DNA of 48,912 nucleotides from Actinomycetota bacterium (lineage in GTDB: Bacteria; Actinomycetota; Thermoleophilia; Gaiellales; Gaiellaceae). The stretch is taken from the NCBI GenBank assembly GCA_005883955.1, contig VAXH01000057.1, forward strand, positions 1-48,912. The letters run 5' to 3'. This document shows positions 3,980 through 21,672 of the stretch, in pieces. A model generated the notes under the pieces. It saw nothing but the letters and a program-made list of their open reading frames with translations, made no database searches and had not been told where the DNA came from. The stretch's first letter is position 1. Every line of letters starts with the position of its first letter. Position numbers and translations under genes: made by a program.

Positions 3980-4915
3980 ATGAAGCTCTCCGAACTCGAT
4001 TACGCGCTGCCGCCGGAGTTGATCGCGCAGCGTCCGCTGGAGCTCCGCGACGACTCGCGGCTGCTCGTCTACGACCGCGAGAGCGGCGAGGTCCGGCAGC
4101 GCCGGTTCTCCGAGCTGCCCGACGAACTCGCGACGGACGAGCTCGTCGTCGTCAACGACACACGGGTGATTCCGGCGCGGATCAGGATCGAGCGTCCGCG
4201 CGGCGAGGTGCTCCTGCTCGAGCGCACCGACACCGATGGGGTCTGGGAGGGGCTCGCCCGGCCGACGAAGCGGCTGCGGGCAGGCAGGCGTTACGGCCCC
4301 ATCGAGCTGCTCGAGCACCTGGGAGAAGGTCGCTGGCTGCTGCGGCTCGACGGCGAGCCCGCCGGCGAGATGCCCCTGCCCCCCTACATCACCGAGGCGC
4401 TCTCCGATCCGGAGCGGTACCAGACGGTCTACGCCCAGGAGGAGGGCTCGGCCGCGGCTCCGACCGCAGGTCTCCATTTCACTCCAGAGCTCCTGGCGCG
4501 GCTCGACGTCGAGCGCGTGACGCTCCACGTCGGCCTCGATACCTTTCGGCCCGTCACCGCCGAGGAGCTGGAGCGCCACGAGCTTCACAGTGAGCGCTAC
4601 GAGGTGGCGCCGGCCGCCTGGGAGCGGATCCGCGCGGCGCGGCGGGTGCTCGCCGTGGGCACGACCACGGTGCGGGTGCTCGAGTCGGCGGCACGCGGAG
4701 CGCCGCTGCGAGGCCGCACCGATCTCTTCGTCACGCCGGGCTTCGAGTTCCGGCGGGTCGACTCGCTGTTGACGAACTTCCACCTACCGCGGTCGACTCT
4801 GCTCGCGCTCGTGATGGCGTTCGCCGGCGTCGAAGAGACGAGGCGCCTCTACCGGCTGGCAATCGATGAGCGGTACCGCTTCTACTCCTTCGGCGACGCG
4901 ATGCTCGTCCGATGA
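3980..4915 (+). CDS. queA: S-adenosylmethionine:tRNA ribosyltransferase-isomerase
   Basis: QueA transfers and isomerises the ribosyl part of S-adenosylmethionine onto 7-aminomethyl-7-deazaguanine in tRNA, giving epoxyqueuosine. The family signature is clear from the N-terminus (LSELDYALPPELIAQRP, DDSRLLVYDR) through VVNDTRVIPARI, TAGLHFT and the C-terminal DSLLTNFHLPRSTLLALVMAF. The start is ATG 3980; a TTG nine bases earlier is less likely. At 311 residues it is somewhat shorter than the usual 340-350, the shortening lying in the middle. The stop overlaps the tgt start (ATGA), so the two queuosine genes are translationally coupled. QueC, QueD, QueE and QueF genes are not in the window. Confidence 0.95.
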   Translation: MKLSELDYALPPELIAQRPLELRDDSRLLVYDRESGEVRQRRFSELPDELATDELVVVNDTRVIPARIRIERPRGEVLLLERTDTDGVWEGLARPTKRLRAGRRYGPIELLEHLGEGRWLLRLDGEPAGEMPLPPYITEALSDPERYQTVYAQEEGSAAAPTAGLHFTPELLARLDVERVTLHVGLDTFRPVTAEELERHELHSERYEVAPAAWERIRAARRVLAVGTTTVRVLESAARGAPLRGRTDLFVTPGFEFRRVDSLLTNFHLPRSTLLALVMAFAGVEETRRLYRLAIDERYRFYSFGDAMLVR

Positions 4916-6042
4916 GCTTCCGCGTCACCGCGACCGAGGGGGCCACCCGGGCCGGGGTCCTGACGACCGCCCATGGCGACGTGCCGACGCCGGCTTTCAT
5001 GCCCGTCGGCACGAAGGCGACCGTCAAGACCGTCGACCCCGACGAGCTGCGGGCGCTGGGGGCGACGATCGTGCTCGGCAACAGCTACCACCTGCACTTC
5101 CGGCCCGGCGCCGACCTGATCGCCGAGCTTGGCGGCCTGCACGGGTTCATGGGCTGGGACGGTCCGATCCTGACCGACTCCGGCGGCTTCCAGGTCTTCT
5201 CGCTCCGGCACACGATTCTCCGGGCCGACGACGACGGCGTCGTCTTCCGGTCGGTGTACGACGGCGAAGCCGCGAGCTTCACCCCCGACTCGGTGGCTCG
5301 GATCCAGGCTCAGCTCGGCTCCGACATCGCCATGTGCCTGGATGCGGTTCCGCCCGCGGACGCTCCTCGCCAGGCGCTCGAGGACGCCGTCCGCCTGACG
5401 ACGCTCTGGGCCGCGCGTCAGCGTTCGGCCGAGCGGGCGCCGGGACAGCTGGTCTTCGCGATCGCGCAGGGTGGCACCGATGCGGAGCTGCGCGCGCGCT
5501 CGATCGACGAGCTCATGGCGCTCGATTTCGACGGCCACGCGCTCGGCGGGCTCGCGATCGGCGAGGACCGCGAGCTGATGTTCGAGACAGTCGGTTGGGC
5601 TGCGCCGCTGCTACGGAGTGACCGCGCCCGCTACTTCATGGGCATCGGCGATCCCCAGGGCGTGCTCGAGGTGATCGAGCGCGGGATCGACATGTTCGAC
5701 TGTGTGCTGCCGACGCGGCTCGGGCGGACCGGTTCGGCGCTGACCTGGTCAGGGCGGCTCAACCTCAAGAACGCCCGCTATGTGCGCGACCAGGCGCCGC
5801 TGCAGGAGGGTTGCGGCTGTCCGGCGTGCATGCGCTTCTCGCGCGCGTACATCCGCCACCTCGTCAACCAGCAGGAACTGCTCGGCCACCGGCTGCTGAG
5901 CCTGCACAATCTACGATTCCTCCTCGATTTGACGGGAGGCGCGAGGGCAGCGATCGAGCGGGGCGAGTTCGCCGTCTACAAACGCGAGGCGCTGGCGCGG
6001 CTCGGTGCCCCCGCAGAAGAGGAGGCATTACGAATTACCTGA
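4912..6042 (+). CDS. tgt: tRNA-guanine transglycosylase
   Basis: A 376-residue enzyme that exchanges guanine at position 34 of tRNAs with GUN anticodons for the queuosine precursor preQ1. Visible signatures: TPAFMPVGTKATVK, LGNSYHLHFRPG, the catalytic DSGGFQVFSL segment, FDCVLPTRLGRTG with the second aspartate region, and a C-terminal zinc site CGCPACMRFSRAYIRHL followed by a histidine in LLSLHN. Length and motif order are typical of bacterial Tgt. Overlaps queA by 4 bp at the start and the probable yajC start at the end, so it belongs to one transcription unit queA-tgt-yajC-secDF. Confidence 0.96.
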   Translation: MSFRVTATEGATRAGVLTTAHGDVPTPAFMPVGTKATVKTVDPDELRALGATIVLGNSYHLHFRPGADLIAELGGLHGFMGWDGPILTDSGGFQVFSLRHTILRADDDGVVFRSVYDGEAASFTPDSVARIQAQLGSDIAMCLDAVPPADAPRQALEDAVRLTTLWAARQRSAERAPGQLVFAIAQGGTDAELRARSIDELMALDFDGHALGGLAIGEDRELMFETVGWAAPLLRSDRARYFMGIGDPQGVLEVIERGIDMFDCVLPTRLGRTGSALTWSGRLNLKNARYVRDQAPLQEGCGCPACMRFSRAYIRHLVNQQELLGHRLLSLHNLRFLLDLTGGARAAIERGEFAVYKREALARLGAPAEEEALRIT

Positions 6043-6329
6043 TCGTGATCGTGGCGGTGTTCGCCCTGCTGTGGTTCTTCGTGCTGCGTCCGCAGCGGCG
6101 CCGGTCGATGGAGCAGCTGCAGATGCAGGACACGCTCAGCCTGGGCGACGAGGTGATCACGGCAGGCGGGATCCGCGGCTACGTGCGCCAGCTGGACGAG
6201 GAGGTGTTGAAAGTCGAGATCGCGCCTGAAGTCGTGGTGCGCCTCGACCGGCGCGCCGTCGCCGCCGTCGTGCAGGAGGAAGACGACGAGCCCCAGCCGC
6301 CAACCCAGAACGAGAGTGGTGAAGGCTAA
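6027..6329 (+). CDS. yajC: Preprotein translocase accessory subunit YajC
   Basis: About 100 residues: one N-terminal membrane helix (YLIVIVAVFALLWFFVL), the RPQRRR positive patch, then the conserved GDEVITAGGIRGYV and EVLKVEIAPEVVVRLDRRAV strands. YajC associates with SecDF at the SecYEG export channel. The start is uncertain. A strong AGGAGG at 6020-6025 is followed by ATT 6027 (rare start, spacing one base), CTG 6039 and GTG 6045, and no ATG is available. GTG 6045 would trim six residues and still keep most of the helix. The 5' end overlaps the tgt stop, suggesting coupling. The product is soluble and acidic at the C-terminus. Confidence 0.85.
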   Translation: MTNYLIVIVAVFALLWFFVLRPQRRRSMEQLQMQDTLSLGDEVITAGGIRGYVRQLDEEVLKVEIAPEVVVRLDRRAVAAVVQEEDDEPQPPTQNESGEG

Positions 6330-6347
6330 GCTTCCAGCCCTGCGCGG

Positions 6348-9170
6348 ATGACGAACCGCCGTTCGCACCTGATCCTTGTCGGCCTCATCCTCGCCGCTCT
6401 GGCGGGAGTGGTTGCGCTTGGCATTCCCGGATCGCCGGTCCACAAGAAGGTCACCCTCGGCCTCGATCTCCAGGGCGGCCTCGAGGTGGTCCTGAAGGCG
6501 CAGCCGGCGAAGGGACAGAAGCTCGACCCCTCGGCGCTCGACCGCTCCGTCTCGATCATGCGCCAGCGTGTCGACAAGCTCGGCGTCGCCGAGCCCGAGA
6601 TCAGGAAGCAGGGCTCGAACCAGATCGTGATCGAGCTCGCGGGCGTCCATGATCCGGCCAAGGCGGCGTCGATCATCGGCAAGACCGCCCAGCTCGAGCT
6701 TTACGACCTCGAGACGTCCGTGACCGGGCCGTCGCTGACCGCAGCCGGAAACCCGCAGGAGACGACCAGCCTCTACGGCCTGCTTTCCGCTTCCCAGTCG
6801 TTGGCGAAGAACGGCCAGCCCGAGGGCTACTACGCGTTCGGCAAGAACAAGGTGAAGTCGGTGGGGCCCGCGAACACGCGCGCCGCTGCCCTGAGACAGG
6901 CGAAGCAGGCGAACCTCAAGCGGCCGTTCACGGCCCTCGCCGTGCCCCACAACACGGTTGTCGTCACCTGCGACTCGACCGAGGTCGTCTGCCCCGGGAA
7001 CCTGCCCCAGCAGGGGAACGCGATCGGTCACCCGCCACCGGGCAAGAGCTACTACTACCTCTTCACCCACGACCCGAACAAGAAGGCCGTCGACAACGTC
7101 AAGGGCGTTCCGCAGCTGACCGGGTCGGATCTGAAGCTGTCCGGGACGCGCCAGGACTTCGACCCGACCACGAACGAGCCGGTCGTGCTGATGCAGTTCA
7201 CCGGCTCCGGCTCGCACAAATTCCAGGAGGTGACCTCGGAGGAGTACAACCGGGGCCACAACCGGAACGGCATCCCGCAGCACTTCGCGATCGTGCTCGA
7301 CCGTGAGATCAGGTCGTTCCCGCAGATCGACCCGACGAAGTCCGACCTCGCAGGCGGGATCAGCGGCAACGCGGAGATCTCGGGCATCGGTTCGATCGGA
7401 GAGGCCAAGGACCTCGCGCTCGTGCTCCAGACAGGCGCCCTGCCGGTCAACTTCGTCCAGATCGAGCGCACCGACGTCTCCGCCACGCTCGGAAAGGACT
7501 CGCTGAACGAGGCGAAGAAGGCGGCGCTGATCGGCCTGCTGCTGGTGGCGATCTTCCTGCTCGTCCTCTACCGGTTCCTCGGCCTCGTCGCGGTGATCGG
7601 GCTCGGCATCTACGCGGCCTTCCTCTACGCCGCGATCCTGCTCTTCAACGTGACGCTGACGCTGCCGGGCTTCGCAGGATTGATCCTGACGATAGGCGTG
7701 GCCGCCGACGCGAACGTCGTCGTCTTCGAACGGATCAAGGAAGAAGTGCGCGCCGGGAAGTCCGTGCGCGCGGCGATCGCCGCCGGCTACGCCAAGGGCT
7801 TCCACACGATCATCGACGCGAACGTCGTCACCGTGATCACGGCCCTGGTCCTGTTCGCGGTCGCGACCGCCGGCGTCAAAGGCTTCGCGCTGATGCTGAT
7901 GATCGGGACGGTGATCTCGCTCGTCACCGCGGTCGCGGCGACCCGGGCGATGCTGGGCCTGCTCTCAGGATTCACGTGGTTCGACAACCCGCGCTTCATG
8001 GGCGCGGCGGGCCAGCAGTCGGCGAAGTGGCTGCAGATCGACTTCATGCGCCGCCGCTATCTGTGGTTCGCGATTTCGGGCGTGATCATCATCGTCGGGG
8101 CAGCCTCGCTCGGCACCAAGGGACTGAACCTCGGGATCGACTTCAAGGGCGGCACCCAGGTGACCTTCAAGACGCCGAAGCCGGTCTCGCTGACGGACGT
8201 CCGCAACCAGGCAAAGGACATCGGCCAGAACGACGCGGTCATCCAGGGCCGCGGAAAAACCTTCGGCAGCGACAGCTACGAGAACTTCCAGATGCGGATG
8301 AAGTCGCTGTCGCGGGCTAACCAGAACAAGCTCGGACAGGATCTGGTCTCGCGCTTCCACGCGACGAACTCGGAGATCCAGAACGTCTCCTCGAGCTTCG
8401 GGAGACAGATCGCGCGCTCGGCGATCCTCGCGATCATCGTCTCGCTGCTCCTGATCGTGCTCTACATCGCGGTCCGGTTCGATCTCAAGTTCGCCTTACC
8501 CGTGATCGCGGCGCTGCTGCACGACATCGTGATCACGGTCGGCGTCTACTCGTTGACCGGGCGTGAGGTTTCGAACTCGACGGTCGCGGCCGTCTTGACA
8601 GTGCTCGGCTACTCGATCTACGACACGATCATCATCTTCGACCGGATGCGGGAAAACATCCCGCTGATGCGGCGCTCGTCGTTCGCGACGATCGCCAACG
8701 TCTCCCTCTGGGAGACGATCCGCCGCTCGCTGGCGACGACCTTCATCACGCTCCTACCGATCGGCGCCCTGCTCGTCTTCGGCGGTGCGACACTGAAGGA
8801 CTTCGCGTTCGCGCTGCTCGTCGGCATCACCTCGGGTGCGTACTCGTCGATCTTCATCGCCGCACCGTTGCTGACAATCCTGAAGGAGCGCGAACCTGAG
8901 TTCGCGCGGCGCAAAGGTGTCGACGGACGTGAAGAAGGGGCTGAGCCCGACGGCGGAATGCCCGCTCGCCGTCGTCCGAGGCGGCCGCGGACCGGTGCGC
9001 CGGCTGCCGATCCGGGCACGGTCGTGCTGGAGGAAGCCGAGCAGGCCGCCGCGGCCGAACCGACTCCTTCGCTCGGCGAGCTCGCCCCGAGTCCGGCTAC
9101 TTCGGCCGAAGCGAAGCGGGAGCGCCGTCGGCAGCGGCGCCGTGCGCGTCCGCATGGCAGAACCCGCTGA
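6348..9170 (+). CDS. secDF: Fused SecD-SecF protein-export membrane protein
   Basis: A single 940-residue polypeptide contains both SecD and SecF, as in Bacillus SecDF; in many actinobacteria they are separate. The SecD half (residues about 1-560) has an N-terminal helix, the D1 motif LGLDLQGGLEVVLKA, a large extracytoplasmic P1 domain with a roughly 150-residue insertion, and five membrane helices with IGVAADANVVVFERIKEE. The SecF half (about 565-860) has GLNLGIDFKGGTQVTF and helices with TVLGYSIYDTIIIFDRMREN. It uses the proton gradient to pull exported proteins through SecYEG. The tail of about 80 residues is Pro/Ala/Arg-rich and very basic (RRRQRRRARPHGRTR). The junction is in frame with no sign of a sequence error. 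Confidence 0.95.
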   Translation: MTNRRSHLILVGLILAALAGVVALGIPGSPVHKKVTLGLDLQGGLEVVLKAQPAKGQKLDPSALDRSVSIMRQRVDKLGVAEPEIRKQGSNQIVIELAGVHDPAKAASIIGKTAQLELYDLETSVTGPSLTAAGNPQETTSLYGLLSASQSLAKNGQPEGYYAFGKNKVKSVGPANTRAAALRQAKQANLKRPFTALAVPHNTVVVTCDSTEVVCPGNLPQQGNAIGHPPPGKSYYYLFTHDPNKKAVDNVKGVPQLTGSDLKLSGTRQDFDPTTNEPVVLMQFTGSGSHKFQEVTSEEYNRGHNRNGIPQHFAIVLDREIRSFPQIDPTKSDLAGGISGNAEISGIGSIGEAKDLALVLQTGALPVNFVQIERTDVSATLGKDSLNEAKKAALIGLLLVAIFLLVLYRFLGLVAVIGLGIYAAFLYAAILLFNVTLTLPGFAGLILTIGVAADANVVVFERIKEEVRAGKSVRAAIAAGYAKGFHTIIDANVVTVITALVLFAVATAGVKGFALMLMIGTVISLVTAVAATRAMLGLLSGFTWFDNPRFMGAAGQQSAKWLQIDFMRRRYLWFAISGVIIIVGAASLGTKGLNLGIDFKGGTQVTFKTPKPVSLTDVRNQAKDIGQNDAVIQGRGKTFGSDSYENFQMRMKSLSRANQNKLGQDLVSRFHATNSEIQNVSSSFGRQIARSAILAIIVSLLLIVLYIAVRFDLKFALPVIAALLHDIVITVGVYSLTGREVSNSTVAAVLTVLGYSIYDTIIIFDRMRENIPLMRRSSFATIANVSLWETIRRSLATTFITLLPIGALLVFGGATLKDFAFALLVGITSGAYSSIFIAAPLLTILKEREPEFARRKGVDGREEGAEPDGGMPARRRPRRPRTGAPAADPGTVVLEEAEQAAAAEPTPSLGELAPSPATSAEAKRERRRQRRRARPHGRTR

Positions 9171-13187: not shown

Positions 13188-13754
13188 TCAAGCGAGGAGA
13201 GCGCCTTCGAGCCGCAGCAACTGCTGCTTCCGCTCGAGCCCGCCCGCATAGCCGACCAGCGAACCGTTGGCTCCGATCACGCGGTGGCAGGGCAGCACGA
13301 TCGGCACGGGGTTGCGGTTCATGATCGTCCCGACCGCCCGCGCCGCCTTCGGCTTGCCGGCCTTCGCGGCGAGGGCGCCGTAGGTCGTGACCTCGCCGAA
13401 CGGGACCCGTCTCAGCTCCTCGAGCACGGCGCGGCCGAAGTCGCGGGCGAGCCGCAGATCGACGTCGAGGTCGAACCGCTTGCGCTTGCCCGCGAAGTAC
13501 TCGTCCAGCTGGCGGCGAGCCGGGTCGACCGGCCGCGCCGAGCGGAGGACACGCGAACCGAAGCCGCGGGCGAGCCTTTCGATCTCGACATCGGGATCCG
13601 ACTCATAGGAGATGACGCAGAGGCCGCGCTCGGAGACGCCGACGAAGAGCTCGCCGAGTGGGGACTCCACCACGTCATAGGCGACATCGAGCAGACCTGC
13701 TTCGGCGGCTGCCGCGCGGAAGCGGGTGTCGAGCTCGGGGGAGACGCTGGTCAC
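13188..13754 (-). CDS. ogt: Methylated-DNA--[protein]-cysteine S-methyltransferase
   Basis: A 188-residue suicide repair protein that removes methyl groups from O6-methylguanine in DNA. The acceptor cysteine is Cys156 in the invariant VLPCHRV motif. The helix-turn-helix with the arginine finger region (FGEVTTYGALAAKAGKPKAARAVG) and the NRNPVPI Asn hinge precede it. The N-terminal domain (about 20-95) is the usual less conserved RNase-H-like part. The start GTG overlaps the stop of the ECF sigma factor gene by 4 bp (GTGA), so the two are co-expressed. There is no Ada-type regulatory domain. Confidence 0.94.
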   Translation of the reverse strand: MTSVSPELDTRFRAAAAEAGLLDVAYDVVESPLGELFVGVSERGLCVISYESDPDVEIERLARGFGSRVLRSARPVDPARRQLDEYFAGKRKRFDLDVDLRLARDFGRAVLEELRRVPFGEVTTYGALAAKAGKPKAARAVGTIMNRNPVPIVLPCHRVIGANGSLVGYAGGLERKQQLLRLEGALLA

Positions 13755-14212
13755 GATTCCTTGCTCCTTTCTCTCAGCCGGCGCACCCCGGATGAGGTGG
13801 CCTGGCGCGCCGCGTCCTCGGAAGAGCCGAGTGCGGTGGCGATCTCGTCGTAGGGAAGGTCGAAGCCGTAGCGCAGGACGACGGCGGCTCGTTCCTTCGG
13901 CGGCAGGTCATCGGTCAACGGGCCGAGCTCGGCGTGGGGGGGAAGGCTGTCCTCCACTGCCAGCTCCGGTAGCGCGCCGCGAGGCCGCGTCCGGCGCGTC
14001 TCGTCGATCGCGACCCGCGTAGCGATCGTGAATACCCAGGCTCGAAGGTGCCGTCCGTTCCGCAGCTCGGGATAGGCGCGGAGCGCCCGCAAGAACGTCT
14101 CTTGAAAGGCGTCCTCGGCACCCTGTCCGAGCAGTCGCCGCAGGTGGGCGAAAACAGGGTCCTTGTGCTCGGCGTAGAACGATTCGAACGGCGGAATGCG
14201 CACCGGCTCCAT
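13751..14212 (-). CDS. ECF-type RNA polymerase sigma factor
   Basis: A 153-residue sigma factor starting at ATG 14212; a TTG 48 bases upstream is weaker. Region 2 (about residues 8-75) shows FYAEHKDPVFAHLRRLLG, the AEDAFQETFLRAL promoter-melting segment and LRAWVFTIATRVAIDETRR. Region 4 (about 95-150) shows LPPKERAAVVLRYGFDLPYDEIATALG with its helix-turn-helix and ATSSGVRRLRER. It directs RNA polymerase to a special promoter set. No anti-sigma factor gene is adjacent; instead it is translationally coupled to ogt, which suggests a link with alkylation damage or a general stress response. Its promoter region is shared with the divergent mraZ gene. Confidence 0.9.
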   Translation of the reverse strand: MEPVRIPPFESFYAEHKDPVFAHLRRLLGQGAEDAFQETFLRALRAYPELRNGRHLRAWVFTIATRVAIDETRRTRPRGALPELAVEDSLPPHAELGPLTDDLPPKERAAVVLRYGFDLPYDEIATALGSSEDAARQATSSGVRRLRERSKES

Positions 14213-14308: not shown

Positions 14309-14743
14309 ATGCTGCTAGGTGAGTACGAGCATACGATCGATGACAAGAACCGCCTCACGCTCCCGGCCAAGTTTCGACAGGCATTCGACGAAGGCCTGGT
14401 TCTCACGCGGGGAATCGAGCGGTGCCTCTCCGCGTACCCGCGCAGCGACTGGGCCGAGAGCGTTGAGTCGAGGCTCCGGGAGCTCGACCCGCTCAGCAAG
14501 GAAGGCCGCGTGATGCAGCGCTATTTCTTCTCCGGGGCGGCCGAGGCGGAGCTGGACAAGCAGGGCAGAGTGATGGTGCCGTCGCCGCTGGGCGACTACG
14601 CCGGGCTGGGGAAGGAGGTCGTCGTGGTGGGGATCCGCGACCACCTCGAGATCTGGGACCGCGCCTCTTGGCGCGCGCACCTGGACGAGATCGAAGGGAG
14701 TGCCGAGGATGTTGCCGAGCGTCTTGCAACCAAGCGCGACTGA
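14309..14743 (+). CDS. mraZ: Transcriptional regulator MraZ
   Basis: A 144-residue protein with two tandem AbrB-like MraZ domains. The first begins MLLGEYEHTIDDKNRLTLPAKFR; the second contains AEAELDKQGRVMVPSPLGDYAGL and ends with EVVVVGIRDHLEIWD. The DK.R(L/V) DNA-contact motifs appear in both halves (DDKNRL, DKQGRV). MraZ forms ring oligomers that bind GTGG-type repeats, here seen immediately upstream. First gene of the dcw cluster, overlapping rsmH by 35 bp, so the two are tightly coupled. Length is normal for the family. Confidence 0.96.
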   Translation: MLLGEYEHTIDDKNRLTLPAKFRQAFDEGLVLTRGIERCLSAYPRSDWAESVESRLRELDPLSKEGRVMQRYFFSGAAEAELDKQGRVMVPSPLGDYAGLGKEVVVVGIRDHLEIWDRASWRAHLDEIEGSAEDVAERLATKRD

Positions 14744-15665
14744 TCACGTTCCCGTACTCGCCGACGAGGTTCGGCAGCTGCTTGCGATCGAGTCCGGCGA
14801 GACCGTGGTGGACGCGACCTTCGGGGCCGGCGGCCATGCCGCGCTGCTCGCCGCCGACCTACGCGGCGAGGGGCGGTTGATCGCCATCGACCGCGATCCG
14901 ACCGCACGCGCCTACTTCGACCGCTTTCGCAAGGAGACCGGTATTCAAGGCCGTTTTCTCCGCGGTGACTTCTCGATCGTGCTCGAGCAGCTCGCCGACA
15001 ACGGGGCTCGCGCCGACGCGATCCTCTTCGATCTCGGCGTCTCGTCGATGCAGATCGACCGCCCTGAGCGGGGCTTCTCCTACGCAGCCGACGCACCGCT
15101 CGACATGCGTATGGATCCCTCGGCCGACTACTCGGCCCGCGAGCTCGTCAACGAGGCCTCGGAGCGCGAGCTGACGCACATCTTCCGCCAGTACGGCGAG
15201 GAGCGCTACGCGAAGCAGATCACCCGTGCGATCGCGCGCCGGCGCAAGGATCAGCCCTTCGAACGGACCGGCGAGCTCGTCGAGACGATCAAGAACGCTA
15301 TCCCGGCTCCCGCCCGCTTTGGTGACGGACACCCGGCGAAGCGCGTCTTCCAGGCGCTCCGCATCGCCGTCAACGACGAGCTGACCGCGCTCGAGGACGC
15401 GCTCCCCGCGGCCGTCGACCTGCTGAAGCCGGGCGGCCGACTGGCGGTGATCAGCTTCCACTCGCTCGAGGACCGGATCGTCAAGCGCTTCCTCCGCGAC
15501 CAGGAGCACGGCTGCACGTGTCCGCCCGACTTCCCGGTCTGCGTCTGCGGTCAGGAGCCGGTGCTGCGCGCGACACCGCGTCGGGCGATTCGGCCGAGCT
15601 CGCGCGAGACCGCGAGCAACCCGCGGGCCGCGTCGGCGCGGTTGAGGGCCGCGGTCAAGGTTTAG
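14709..15665 (+). CDS. rsmH: 16S rRNA (cytosine1402-N4)-methyltransferase
   Basis: A 318-residue SAM-dependent enzyme (formerly MraW). Motif I is VVDATFGAGGHA, preceded by the substrate-side DHVPVLADEV. DLGVSSMQIDRPERGFSY, the PLDMRMDP segment, AKRVFQALRIAVNDEL and ISFHSLEDRIVKRF are all diagnostic. It methylates C1402 of 16S rRNA. ATG 14709 is chosen because a GAAGGGA sequence sits nine bases upstream; GTG 14700 is the alternative. The stop codon lies in the left arm of a hairpin that reaches to the ftsL start. A short insertion with several cysteines (CTCPPDFPVCVCG) near residue 275 is common in this family. Confidence 0.96.
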   Translation: MLPSVLQPSATDHVPVLADEVRQLLAIESGETVVDATFGAGGHAALLAADLRGEGRLIAIDRDPTARAYFDRFRKETGIQGRFLRGDFSIVLEQLADNGARADAILFDLGVSSMQIDRPERGFSYAADAPLDMRMDPSADYSARELVNEASERELTHIFRQYGEERYAKQITRAIARRRKDQPFERTGELVETIKNAIPAPARFGDGHPAKRVFQALRIAVNDELTALEDALPAAVDLLKPGGRLAVISFHSLEDRIVKRFLRDQEHGCTCPPDFPVCVCGQEPVLRATPRRAIRPSSRETASNPRAASARLRAAVKV

Positions 15666-15705: not shown

Positions 15706-16116
15706 ATGGCTTCCTGGCACGCAGCCGCCGCACCGGCCCCGGCGCGCGCGCCGGCCCGAAAGCGTCCCCGTCCCGGGCCTGGCGCGCTCGATCACAAGCA
15801 GTCCCGGCCTGCGCCGAGGCGTCGGGAAAAGGCGAAGGCCGGGGTCGCCGGCGGGCTCGCCTGGATCATCGCCGCCGGCGTGCTGCTCGCCGGGATCGTC
15901 GCGCTCAACGTCGCCGTGCTGCGGCTGAACATCCGCCTCGACCACATGAACAACGAGCGGCAGCAGCTGCAGGCCGAAAACGCAGCGCTCGGCGCGAAGC
16001 TGTCCGGCGCCGTCTCGTCGCCGAGGATCCAGGCACTCGCCAAGTCGCGCGGTTTCGTTCCGGCCGATCCGACGACGATCGGCTATGTCGACCTCACAAA
16101 TCGTCGCGGGCGTTGA
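15706..16116 (+). CDS. ftsL: Cell division protein FtsL-like
   Basis: A 136-residue bitopic membrane protein. A basic, Pro/Ala/Arg-rich cytoplasmic region (residues 1-46) precedes one membrane helix (about 50-72, LAWIIAAGVLLAGIVALNVA). An extracytoplasmic leucine-zipper-like segment (LRLNIRLDHMNNERQQLQAE) and a short tail with IQALAKSRGFVPADPTTIGYV follow. This is the FtsL/DivIC pattern. FtsL joins the FtsQ-FtsB-FtsL complex, which activates FtsWI. Position between rsmH and ftsI is the canonical ftsL place. The stop overlaps the ftsI start (TTGA). Confidence 0.85.
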   Translation: MASWHAAAAPAPARAPARKRPRPGPGALDHKQSRPAPRRREKAKAGVAGGLAWIIAAGVLLAGIVALNVAVLRLNIRLDHMNNERQQLQAENAALGAKLSGAVSSPRIQALAKSRGFVPADPTTIGYVDLTNRRGR

Positions 16117-17798
16117 GCGGCCGGCTCGCGAACCGCCGGATCCGTCTGCTCCTCGCCGTTTTCGCGATCGTCTTCGGCGCCACCCTCTTTCGCGCGGTCT
16201 GGCTGCAGGGCGTGCGTGCCCAGTCGCTCGGCAGGATGGCGGCGAGCCAGCACCGGACGACGGTCGATCTCGCGGCCAACCGCGGGACGATTTACGACAG
16301 CACGGGCGTCCAGCTCGCGGTGGGCGAGCAGGCGATCACGGTCTACGCCGATCCGCTGCAGGTCCGGGACGCGACGAAGGCTGCGCCCGTGGTCGCGCGC
16401 ATCCTGAGGCTCGCTCCGAAACAGGTCTACGAGCAGTTGGCCGACCGAACACACGGCTTCGTCTACATCGAGCGGAAGGCGGACCCGGTTCGGGCCGAGC
16501 GGCTTCAGCGCCAGCACATCTCGGGCCTCGGCTTCTATCCAGAAGAGCGGCGCTTCTATCCACAGCACGGGATCGCCGCCCAGGTGCTCGGCTATGCGGG
16601 CGTTGACAACCACGGCCTCTCCGGTCTCGAGCTCGCCCTCGACAAGCGGCTGGCCGGCCGACCAGGACGAGAGACACTCGTCCGCGATCCGCTTGGCCAC
16701 GTGCTCGATTCGATCGTCTCGAAGGCCGCCCTCAACGGCAGTGACGTCTCGCTCACGATCGACCACAACATCCAGGCGACGGCGGATCAGGTCCTGCGCC
16801 AGACCGTCCAGAGATGGCATGCGAAGGACGGCACAGCGATCGTGCTCGATCCACACACAGGCGCCGTCCTCGCGATGGCCGTCGCTCCCGCCTACGACGC
16901 CAACAACTTTCCCGCCGTCTCGAAGGACGTCCAGCGCAACCGGGCGGTGACCGATACGTACGAGCCGGGTTCGACCTTCAAGCTCGTCACGGTTGCCGGC
17001 GCGCTTTAGACCGGGCTCGTCACGCCGCAGGAGAAGTTCGTCCTACCGTACGAGATCCAGATGGCCGACCGCCGGATTCACGACGCGGAGCTGCGCGGGA
17101 CCGAGACGATGAGCGTCGCGCAGATCCTTTCGAAGTCCTCCAACGTCGGCGCGATCACGCTCGCCCGCCTGCTCGGCAAGAACCGCCTCATGTCCTGGAT
17201 CTCGCGCCTCGGTTTCGGCCGCGCGACCGGGATCGACTTCCCCGGCGAGAGCCGGGGGATCGTGCTCCCGGCAGACAAGTGGTCGGGCTCGACGATCGGA
17301 AACGTGCCGATCGGCCAGGGAATTGCGGTGACGCCGATCCAAATGGCCTCGGCGTACGCCGCAATCGCCAACGGGGGGATCTGGACGCGGCCGCATCTCG
17401 TCGAGCGGGTCGGAGACGGGCTGCCCAGGCCGGTGGCCCGGCACCGGATCGTGACCCGCTGGATCGCGCGCGAGCTGACCTCGATGCTCCAGAACGTCGT
17501 TCTCGACGGCACGGGGACGCTTGCGCAGATTCCCGGCTACCACGTCGCCGGCAAGACCGGCACCGCGGCGAAACCGGACTCGCACGGTGGCTATTCGACC
17601 TCGAAGTACGTCGCCTCGTTCGTCGGGTTTGCGCCGGCGACGCGGCCTCGGATCGTCGTGCTCGTAACGATCGACGAGCCCCAGGGCGCGATCTGGGGCG
17701 GCGTGGTCGCCGCGCCGGCCTTCAAGGAGATCGCGCAGCAGACCCTGCAGTACCTGTCGGCGCCGCCGGATGCGCCGCGGACCGCTACTTCGCCTTGA
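16113..17798 (+). pseudogene. ftsI: ftsI (penicillin-binding protein 3) interrupted by one in-frame TAG
   Basis: The frame reads as a complete 561-codon class B PBP except for a TAG at 17007-17009 (codon 299). Before it lie a short cytoplasmic tail, a membrane helix (about 9-30), the dimerisation domain (RGTIYDSTGVQLA) and the SxxK motif STFK (Ser287). After it, in the same frame, come the SSN motif (342-344) and the KTG motif (Lys481). Homologues usually have Glu after the Ala-Leu, so a single GAG to TAG change explains the stop. The truncated product would lack two of three catalytic motifs. FtsI makes septal peptidoglycan and is normally essential, so a sequencing error, readthrough or a recent mutation must be considered. 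Start TTG 16113 overlaps the ftsL stop. The 3' end overlaps the opposing PBP2 gene by 14 bp. Confidence 0.85.
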
Positions 17799-19833
17799 CC
17801 CCGAAGTAGGCGGAGTAGATCTCCTTCGCTGCCGGAGCCGCGGCCTCGGCGCCGAAGCCGCCGTGCTCGATCATCACGACGACGACGAGCTTCGGGTTGT
17901 AGGCCGGCGCCCAGGACGCGTACCAGGAGTGGTCGCTGCCGGGCGGGGCTTCCGCGGTTCCGGTCTTGCCGGCGACCTGGATCGGGAAGGTGCCGAAGAC
18001 GGCGCCGGACGTGCCCGAGTGGGCACCGGCGATCAGACCGTCCCTGATCGTAGAAACGTCGGTGAGGCGGAGGTGCCGCCGGGCCCGAAAACGAAGCTCG
18101 CGGACGATCTGCCCGCTGGAGTTGAGCACGGCCTTGCCGACGTGCGGGCGGACGACCGTGCCGCCGTTCGCGAGCGTCGAGTAGGCGACGGCGAGCTGGA
18201 GCGGTGTGATCGCGAGCTGGCCTTGCCCGACGGCGAGGTTGACCGAGTAACCCTCGTACCAGATCCGCTGCCAGGGCTGCTTGAAGGTCCGCTTCAGCCA
18301 CGCCGGGGTGGGGACGAGGCCGGGGGCCTCGCCAGGGACGTCGAAGCCGGTGGGATGCCCGACGCCGAGGCGACTCGCCCAATCCTGCATGTAGAGATGC
18401 CCCCTCTGCTGCTCGGCGTAGAACATCGAGCCGAGGCGGTAGAACCAGGTGTCGCAGGAGATCGAAAGCGCCTCGGGCAGCGTCAGGCTCGCGTCGACAT
18501 GAGCCTCGACGTTATGGAAGACATGGTTGCCGACGGTGTAGGTGCTCGTGCAGGGCAGCGTCGAGTACGGACTGATCAGACCCGACGCGAGTGCCGCCTC
18601 GGCGACGATCGGCTTGAAGGTCGAGCCCGTCGGATAGACGCCCTGCGTCGCCCGGTTGACGAGGAGGCGGCGAGGATCGTTCGGGTTGAGCAAGGAGCGA
18701 AGGTACTCAGGGTCGGTCGCCGCGCGCGCCTGGTTGAAGCGCGGATAGCTTGCAAGCGCGTAGACGGAGCCGTCGCGCGGGTTCATCACGACCGCGGCCC
18801 CGGCGTGAGCGTCGTAGTGGCCGTTGGCGTGCGCGAGCGCGATTCCGTCCCGAATCGCCTTCTCGGCGGCGCGCTGCAAGCGCAGGTCGACCGTGAGCTG
18901 AAGCCCGTTGGCAGGGCGCGCCACGCGGACGACGCGGGCCGGCCCGATCGGGCGCCCCTGGGCGTCGACCACGACACGGGCTTTGTCGAGTCCGCCGTTC
19001 AGCAGCCGGTCGTAGGCTTCCTCGGCGCCCGACTGACCCACGATCGCACCGGCGCGGAGACCGGGACGCGTGTGGGCGGCGAGTTGGCTCGGGCCGATCT
19101 CGCCGAGCAGGCCGAGGAACTCAGCGCCGATTGAGCCGCTGGGGTAGCTCCGCTCCGGCAGGGCCACGACGCGGATCCCCGGAAACTCGCGGGCGTGCTC
19201 GTCGAGGAAGAAGCCGAGGTCCCGGGTGATGCGCGGCAGGACGACCGCCGAGGAATACGGCGACTTGAATTCGCTGTGGCGGATCCGTTGGAGAAAGCGT
19301 GCCGGCGGAACTCCGGAGAGGTAGCTGAGCCGCCGCAGGAGCATGCGGCCCTGGTGGGTCGGCCACCAACGGCCGTGCTGGTCGATCAGACCGAGAACCG
19401 AGGAGTCGACGGAGACGGCGAGCCCGCCGCTCGTCCCCGCCAGGACCCGGCCTTTCGCGTCGACGATCTGACCGCGTGGGGCGGGAAGATCGATCAGCCG
19501 GAAGGTCTGGCGCTGGGCTGCGAGCGCGAAGTGCGGCCCCCGCACGACCTGGAGAGACCAGAGCCGCAGCGCCAGCAGCCCGAACAGGCCGAGCGTGACG
19601 AGCCCGATCATCCCGACGCGGAGGAAGAAGCCGCCGCTGCCGTGGAAGTCCGCGGCGGCGACCGAGACCGGTCGCACCCCGAGCCGCCGCGGAATGCGGA
19701 CGCTGCGCCGGCCACGCCCTGGCTGAGAGACGAAATCGCTCAGCGCGCGCGGTCCAGTTCGGCTCCGGGCGCGAACGCCCTCAGGTTCGCTGGGGGAACC
19801 TCCCACTCGCTCCGCGTCAGTTTCCCCTTCCAC
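17785..19833 (-). CDS. mrdA: Penicillin-binding protein 2 (elongation-type transpeptidase, MrdA-like)
   Basis: A 682-residue class B PBP on the strand opposite to the rest of the dcw cluster. After a low-complexity basic N-terminus of about 65 residues comes a membrane helix (MIGLVTLGLFGLLALRLWSL), the APRGQIVDAKGRVLA dimerisation block and the ERSYPSGSIGAEFLG segment. The transpeptidase motifs are GSTFK (SxxK), SCD in SISCDTWFY (the SxD variant typical of PBP2 rather than FtsI) and AGKTGTAE. It cross-links peptidoglycan during wall elongation with a RodA partner. The GTG 19833 start has no ribosome-binding site and sits beside two small hairpins, so the true start may be downstream; the first 50 residues are doubtful. 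Convergent with ftsI. Confidence 0.92.
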   Translation of the reverse strand: MEGETDAERVGGSPSEPEGVRARSRTGPRALSDFVSQPGRGRRSVRIPRRLGVRPVSVAAADFHGSGGFFLRVGMIGLVTLGLFGLLALRLWSLQVVRGPHFALAAQRQTFRLIDLPAPRGQIVDAKGRVLAGTSGGLAVSVDSSVLGLIDQHGRWWPTHQGRMLLRRLSYLSGVPPARFLQRIRHSEFKSPYSSAVVLPRITRDLGFFLDEHAREFPGIRVVALPERSYPSGSIGAEFLGLLGEIGPSQLAAHTRPGLRAGAIVGQSGAEEAYDRLLNGGLDKARVVVDAQGRPIGPARVVRVARPANGLQLTVDLRLQRAAEKAIRDGIALAHANGHYDAHAGAAVVMNPRDGSVYALASYPRFNQARAATDPEYLRSLLNPNDPRRLLVNRATQGVYPTGSTFKPIVAEAALASGLISPYSTLPCTSTYTVGNHVFHNVEAHVDASLTLPEALSISCDTWFYRLGSMFYAEQQRGHLYMQDWASRLGVGHPTGFDVPGEAPGLVPTPAWLKRTFKQPWQRIWYEGYSVNLAVGQGQLAITPLQLAVAYSTLANGGTVVRPHVGKAVLNSSGQIVRELRFRARRHLRLTDVSTIRDGLIAGAHSGTSGAVFGTFPIQVAGKTGTAEAPPGSDHSWYASWAPAYNPKLVVVVMIEHGGFGAEAAAPAAKEIYSAYFGVKAK

Positions 19834-20223
19834 TGGTCCGCTTCGCGGACAGGCCCTTCGGGCCGGCGGCGGCGGCGCACTACCTGGGCATCGTTATGTT
19901 CGGTCGGGACGGGTGCCATTTGCCGTTCGTGTTACTAAGGATGCCCGCTTCGGAATTCGATTGCCAGGTGAAAGGCCTCACTTCAGCCATTGCGTTTTGG
20001 TCGGCGGAGAACTTCCGCCGCCCCTGACCCGCACCGCGTCCAGCCCGGCCCAGGGCTGCCGGCCGCTCGTAAGGTTCGCCCGGCCTCCTCCCCACGGCGA
20101 GCATAACCGCGAGGGTGTGCCGTCGCCAGGTGTCCTTTGTGCCGAAAATGCTGCAAATGCAGATCTTTTGGCATAGCGACGCCCGCAGCGGCGGCTGGGC
20201 CCATTGGTAGACTCGCCGCGCAG
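19834..20223. other. 390-bp divergent intergenic region between PBP2 and murE, with small hairpins
   Basis: No convincing gene. Near the PBP2 start two tandem perfect mini-hairpins occur: 19836-19850 (GTCCGC TTC GCGGAC) and 19852-19864 (GGCCC TTC GGGCC); on the minus strand the first contains GCGAAGC, a sequence known to form very stable hairpins. A third stem, 20096-20127, has arms GGCGA/TCGCC and GCATA/TGTGC. The region must hold promoters for PBP2 and for the murE-to-ftsQ block, but no clear -35/-10 pair can be assigned. TATGCT on the minus strand at 20099-20104 is a weak candidate -10. Confidence 0.5.
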
Positions 20224-21672
20224 ATGAACCTGGAGCGCGTCATCGCAGCGCTCGCCCCAACGGACGTCGTGCAGCGCGCTCCGGTCGAGATCTCCGACCT
20301 CGCCTACGACACGCGCGCCGTCGGGCCTGGAGCGCTCTTCTTCTGCGTCCCCGGCGAACGGCACGACGGCCACGCCTTCGCCCGCGAAGCGGTGGAACGC
20401 GGCGCGGCAGCGCTCGCGGTCGAGCGCGTGCTCGAGCTTGACCTCGCCCAGCTTGTCGTGCCTGACGTGCGACGGGCGATGGCTCAGGCCGCTGTTGTCT
20501 TCTTCGAGAACCCGACGCGCGAGCTCGAGGTCGCCGGCGTCACCGGCACGAACGGCAAGACAACGACCACATTCCTCCTCCACTCGATCCTCGCAGCGGC
20601 CGGCCGCCGGCCGGGACTGCTCGGCACGATCGAGAGCCGGATCGGGGGCGATCCCCGGCCGGCGATCCGCACGACGCCTGAGGCAATCGACCTCCAGCGC
20701 GCCTTCCGTCAGATGCTCGACGCCGGAAATCGGAGCTGCGCGCTCGAGGCGACCTCGCACGGCTCCGAGTTGGGCCGGCTCGACGGAGTTCGCTTCAGCG
20801 CGCTCGCCTTCACCAACCTCGGCCAGGACCATCTCGACTTCCACGGGACCTTCGAGCGCTACTTCGACGCGAAGCGCCGGCTCTTCGTCGAGGGCGAGCG
20901 GCCTCCGGCCGCGGTCAACGTCGGCGACAGCTACGGCCGCCGGTTGGCCGAGGACCTGCGGGCCCTCGGCCATCAGCCTCTCGTGACCTTCGGCACCGCC
21001 GACGAAGCGGATATCCGGGCCGAGCAGCTCGAGCTCGACGGCAACGGCGCTCGCTTGCGTGCCGGCGGAATCGCGCTGCGGACGAGGCTGCGCGGCCGCT
21101 TCAACGTCGAGAACGTCCTCGCGGCGGTTGCGGTCTCACGGCTGCTCGGAGTCGACAACGACGCGATCGCGGCCGGAGTCGAGGCGCTCGAGGGCGTCCC
21201 CGGGCGCTTCGAGGCGGTCGACGCGGGCCAGCCGTTCACGGTCGTCGTCGACTACTCCCACAAGCCGGACGCGCTGGAGAACGTGCTCCGCACCGCGCGT
21301 GAATTCGCTCGCAACCGGGTCATCTGCGTCTTCGGCTGCGGCGGCGACAGAGACCGGGCCAAGCGCCCGCTGATGGGACGGATCGCGAGCGAGCTTGCCG
21401 ACGTCGCGATCGTCACCTCGGACAATCCGCGCAGCGAGGATCCCGAGGCGATCATCGCCGAGGTGGTCGCCGGAGGGGGCGCGAGCCTGGAGGTGGAGCC
21501 CGACCGGGCGGCTGCGATTGAACGAGCGCTCGCGCTCGCGGCGGACGGCGACGTGGTCGTCATTGCCGGCAAGGGCCACGAGCAGGGACAGGAGTTCGCA
21601 GGCCGGGTGATCCCGTTCGATGACCGTGAGGTCGCCCGGGAGGCGCTTCGCCGCCTCGGGGCCGCCTTGTGA
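20224..21672 (+). CDS. murE: UDP-N-acetylmuramoyl-tripeptide synthetase, meso-diaminopimelate-adding
   Basis: A 482-residue Mur ligase. The ATP-binding loop is GVTGTNGKTTTTFLLHSIL; ATSHGSELGRLDGVRFSALAFTNLGQDHLDFHG, cut here to its key parts ATSHGSELGR and NLGQDHLDFH, holds the metal and carbamate region. The DNPR motif in TSDNPRSEDPEAI is the signature of enzymes that add meso-diaminopimelate, which tells the peptidoglycan type. It adds the third amino acid to UDP-MurNAc-L-Ala-D-Glu. The start is ATG 20224; the upstream extension with several cysteines is not homologous. Its stop overlaps the murF start (GTGA). Confidence 0.96.
   Translation: MNLERVIAALAPTDVVQRAPVEISDLAYDTRAVGPGALFFCVPGERHDGHAFAREAVERGAAALAVERVLELDLAQLVVPDVRRAMAQAAVVFFENPTRELEVAGVTGTNGKTTTTFLLHSILAAAGRRPGLLGTIESRIGGDPRPAIRTTPEAIDLQRAFRQMLDAGNRSCALEATSHGSELGRLDGVRFSALAFTNLGQDHLDFHGTFERYFDAKRRLFVEGERPPAAVNVGDSYGRRLAEDLRALGHQPLVTFGTADEADIRAEQLELDGNGARLRAGGIALRTRLRGRFNVENVLAAVAVSRLLGVDNDAIAAGVEALEGVPGRFEAVDAGQPFTVVVDYSHKPDALENVLRTAREFARNRVICVFGCGGDRDRAKRPLMGRIASELADVAIVTSDNPRSEDPEAIIAEVVAGGGASLEVEPDRAAAIERALALAADGDVVVIAGKGHEQGQEFAGRVIPFDDREVAREALRRLGAAL

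Follow-up and report, generated by a model that had tools for sequence, protein, structure and literature searches.

An in-frame TAG in the division gene ftsI of a draft actinobacterial genome, probably a consensus, assembly or minority-strain base

Assembly from low read coverage is documented to create spurious internal stops in bacterial genomes (PMC11017572), and bacterial genes commonly carry in-frame stops as polymorphisms that are short-lived (PMC7918605). Mutants of FtsI and FtsW have been made in Streptomyces coelicolor, to judge from titles cited in PMC4282423, and one of these titles (Bennett et al. 2009) speaks of medium-dependent phenotypes for the ftsI mutants. Here we describe an ftsI with an in-frame stop in the window, the whole stretch of 48,912 nucleotides that was analysed, which forms contig 124 in the 2.56-Mb draft genome (126 contigs, 85.8% complete) of an uncultured soil actinobacterium; three drafts of uncultured Actinobacteria from the same genus (G001, G002 and G003) served for comparison. 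Like the spurious assembly pseudogenes of PMC11017572, this ftsI has a single-base internal stop, is a conserved gene that is otherwise intact and lies in a fragmented draft with a few other such lesions, and it differs from them in that the cause is here deduced from the assembled sequences. With the short-lived polymorphisms of PMC7918605 it shares a dN/dS that stays far below 1 both before and after the stop and a stop that is private to one genome, although that study focused on stops shared by at least two genomes and the ftsI TAG is shared by none.

The gene itself is most likely an ordinary, single-copy ftsI, encoding the class B penicillin-binding protein (PBP) that acts as division transpeptidase, in the division and cell-wall cluster of a Thermoleophilia-like organism. 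It occupies positions 16113-17798 of the forward strand, starts with a TTG that overlaps the stop of ftsL, ends in TGA, and is 86-90% identical to the intact ftsI of the three same-genus genomes. As expected of the FtsI/PBP3/PbpB proteins of the dcw cluster, it combines the Pfam domains PBP_dimer (PF03717) and Transpeptidase (PF00905) with the SxxK, SxN and KTG motifs, and it follows, on the same strand, mraZ (14309-14743), rsmH/mraW (14700-15665) and an ftsL-like gene (15706-16116, a match below the curated cut-off). Downstream lie Mur ligases, one of them in the position of murE (20212-21672, forward strand), and an FtsW. In NCBIfam, ftsI matched spoVD_pbp and FtsI/PenA models best, none of them reaching its curated cut-off, and no actinobacterial FtsI model was among the matches. 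Between ftsI and the murE position, on the reverse strand, stands a PBP2/MrdA-like class B PBP (17785-19833) that is convergent with ftsI in all three same-genus genomes as well; the two genes overlap by 14 bases at their 3' ends (17785-17798), and the genus preserves their convergent order.

Across its 561 codons the ftsI frame is open except for one TAG at codon 299 (17007-17009, forward strand), an interruption found in this draft only, the frame being unbroken in all same-genus relatives. The motif EPGSTFK (codons 284-290, 16962-16982), with the SxxK serine at codon 287, lies upstream of the stop, and SSN (codons 342-344, 17136-17144) and KTG (codons 481-483, 17553-17561) lie downstream. 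The sequence-only reading was thus correct in describing a gene that is whole in a single frame but for one TAG between SxxK and SxN, and with X in place of the stop both Pfam domains match the chain across the TAG; the label "essential" that it attached to the gene is better put as presumably essential. No other stop among the genes of the window falls within a conserved domain at a site that is a sense codon in every aligned relative, and for that reason this TAG is more than a chance overlap of reading frames.

Evolutionarily, codon 299 is a sense codon in each of 29 relatives, which carry Ser in 16 cases, Glu in 6, Thr in 3, Asp in 2, and Gln and Ala in one each. The comparison with related genomes that had been proposed therefore settles which base differs, and it does so against the original suggestion that homologues normally have Glu here and that a single G-to-T change (at 17007) accounts for the stop. 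Position by position, T-C-G in G001, G002 and G003 stands against T-A-G in the draft; since all the same-genus genomes have TCG (Ser), the stop implies a C-to-A change at 17008. TAG counts in five relatives (G009, G011, G012, G025 and G031) at first sight hinted at a shared stop, an idea that was rejected, because these counts arise where alignments run over gene ends and the site is a sense codon at all loci.

Selection on the two parts of the gene was compared through dN/dS against each same-genus genome. The values were 0.155 before the TAG and 0.104 after it (codons 300-561) against G003, 0.091 and 0.117 against G002, and 0.135 and 0.141 against G001, with 0.10-0.16 for pairs of intact ftsI genes. 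A pseudogene test thus found no relaxed selection downstream of the TAG, where dN/dS was 0.10-0.14, and the 3' part of ftsI is under normal purifying selection, with no decay. It follows that the stop is recent, or is read through, or is absent from the cells.

Beyond ftsI, we ran a codon-usage scan for stops that have strong same-frame coding on both sides, covering a sample of about 1.1 Mb of the 2.56-Mb draft and, from G001 and G002, about 0.9 Mb; gene boundaries among the matches were removed by eye and with family searches. Three clear mid-domain nonsense codons emerged in the draft: the ftsI TAG, a TAA inside an ABC solute-binding protein (contig C20, position 20978, where all three same-genus relatives have TAC) and a TAA inside a DUF4331 domain (contig C11, position 7833). 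No clear nonsense codon was found in the sampled 0.9 Mb of G001 and G002; three against none (about two expected) are too few to prove the draft worse than those of its relatives, and counts as small as these are compatible with error and with genuine young mutations alike. Random substitutions at about 1e-4 per base would account for three nonsense changes in the sample. Two of the three are C-to-A relative to the relatives, and an oxidative-damage or mutator signature was considered and rejected: over 10.2 kb, C>A/G>T made up 10.4% of the draft's substitutions, the same as in G003, whose spectrum the draft resembles, and with no such excess there is no general damage signature in the draft. 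A further candidate, a TGA in a peroxiredoxin (G000:C7:4172; L185:1173), was removed from the count as a likely selenoprotein. This TGA occupies the position of the catalytic Cys (WSST-TGA-TSEM) and is followed by a hairpin, GCTCCTG-CGTGA-CAGGAGC (z -2.4), and the draft has a tRNA-Sec gene (contig C38), so that the gene is a probable selenocysteine peroxiredoxin.

Taken together, we favour, with a probability of roughly 0.66, the view that the private TAG in an ordinary ftsI is a consensus, assembly or minority-strain base. A single draft base (17008, A for C) would turn the Ser codon into TAG; that base may be a consensus or assembly error, or may come from a minority strain or a minority read, and FtsI would be intact in the cells themselves. 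We infer that it is not the base of the majority of the living population. In favour of an error are the single base that separates the TAG from the TCG of the same-genus genomes, the lack of a stop in the 29 relatives, the undecayed 3' part, the unchanged use of TAG as a stop, the single copy of ftsI and the comparable isolated lesions elsewhere in the draft, among them a deletion in another class B PBP, and sequencing or assembly error, which the sequence-only reading had listed as one alternative among several, thereby becomes the best-supported reading. Against an error stand the small counts of the survey and the lack of a general damage signature, and a real, recent nonsense allele predicts nearly the same picture. 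Such a mutation would be very recent, segregating or fixed in part of the population, and its product would be an inactive FtsI of 298 aa that retains SxxK and lacks SxN and KTG, leaving its carriers impaired, or alive because septal FtsI is conditionally dispensable or partially covered by PbpA/PBP2. We regard this as unlikely, though second in probability. The frequency of short-lived stop polymorphisms in bacteria and the making of the S. coelicolor mutants, as cited by title, speak for it, as does the presence in the draft of both a PbpA-type PBP (contig C30, adjoining an FtsW/RodA protein, a PP2C phosphatase and FHA proteins) and the PBP2-like neighbour of ftsI; the lack of decay in the 3' part speaks against it. 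So does the situation in the relatives, with a whole ftsI and the PBP2-like neighbour in G001, G002 and G003 and a PbpA-like gene also in G001 and G002: relatives that keep ftsI beside the other PBPs indicate that the lineage has not come to dispense with it. The related proposal that another PBP has taken over the role finds no support for the same reason, as the intact relatives keep the same other PBPs beside a working ftsI. In addition to the two already named, the draft encodes a class B PBP (contig C26) and class A-like PBPs (contigs C11, C20 and C119), and these other PBPs have counterparts in relatives with a whole ftsI; a search of the draft for a second ftsI, as had been suggested, found none. 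The C26 gene for a class B PBP (4540-6347) is whole in G001 and G002 and carries in the draft a frameshifting deletion of 88 nt near position 5001, which is either a misassembly or a true loss; being itself broken, it cannot replace ftsI.

Explanations in which the TAG is present and still yields a working protein fare worse. Readthrough, by a suppressor tRNA or in programmed form, would give full-length FtsI at a reduced level and would fit the purifying selection on the 3' part; moreover, prfA and several tRNAs are missing from the draft, which leaves room for a suppressor in one of the gaps. We nevertheless consider it improbable. Among the tRNAs found in this 86%-complete draft none has the anticodon CTA, the suppressor search proposed from the sequence thus giving a negative result, and the pyrrolysine ligase PylS was not found in the draft either. 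Where prfA is missing, the assembly has a gap between contigs C70 and C104, the ftsI TAG is the only in-frame TAG inside a conserved domain in the roughly 1.1 Mb sampled, and the draft's other nonsense lesions, being TAA, would be out of reach of an amber suppressor. Programmed use is likewise not supported, a stop being conserved at this site in 0 of 29 relatives. A stronger version, in which the TAG is fixed in the living population, regulated or suppressor readthrough supplies full-length FtsI and amber decoding limits septation, appears to us very improbable. Even less credible is an FtsI made in two pieces, in which the product of codons 1-298 and that of a restart at ATG 17061 together form the transpeptidase. 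No in-frame start codon lies between the TAG and this ATG, which is present in the draft where the three same-genus relatives have GTC (17061-17063) and which opens a frame of 245 aa (17061-17798, forward strand); the resulting piece, however, would lack SxxK and, having neither signal nor membrane anchor, would remain cytoplasmic, whereas FtsI acts outside the membrane, the break would fall inside the transpeptidase domain, and no convincing ribosome-binding site lies at the usual distance from ATG 17061. General recoding of TAG in this organism, finally, can be given next to no weight. One in-frame TAG and the failure to find RF1 in the draft could be read in its favour, but stop-codon usage refutes it, as had been anticipated from the sequence: TAG ends 281 of 728 genes on the sampled contigs of the draft (38.6%), much as in G001 (94/268, 35.1%) and G002 (62/183, 33.9%), and most of the alignable TAG gene ends of the window are also TAG, at the same place, in the relatives. 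If the base is an error, the lesson is that a single broken essential gene in a draft should be compared with relatives and with reads before biological conclusions are drawn from it; were the stop real and fixed, it would exemplify in nature a division transpeptidase that is lost or made by readthrough.

The RF1 locus bears on both readthrough and recoding. While prfA was not found in the draft, G001, G002 and G003 all have it, and the DNA around the G001 prfA matches the very end of C70 (10991) and the very start of C104, so that, measured against G001, about 2.2 kb including prfA is missing between the two contigs. Because the gap lies exactly at prfA, its absence is an assembly gap and no evidence of loss, and the loss of RF1 was accordingly rejected. 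In the same comparison, many short stretches (about 50-80 b) on many contigs of the draft, often about 110 b apart, match two spots of the G001 prfA neighbourhood (query 6511-6596 and 13669-13756), which suggests a dispersed or tandem repeat family in the draft. As a separate observation on the tRNA genes, a tRNA-Phe gene on contig C45 is flanked by two weak, shortened tRNA-Phe-like copies of 35 bits each (the three stretches lie at 5755-5821, 6748-6820 and 6938-7004), which are perhaps the marks of an integrating element.
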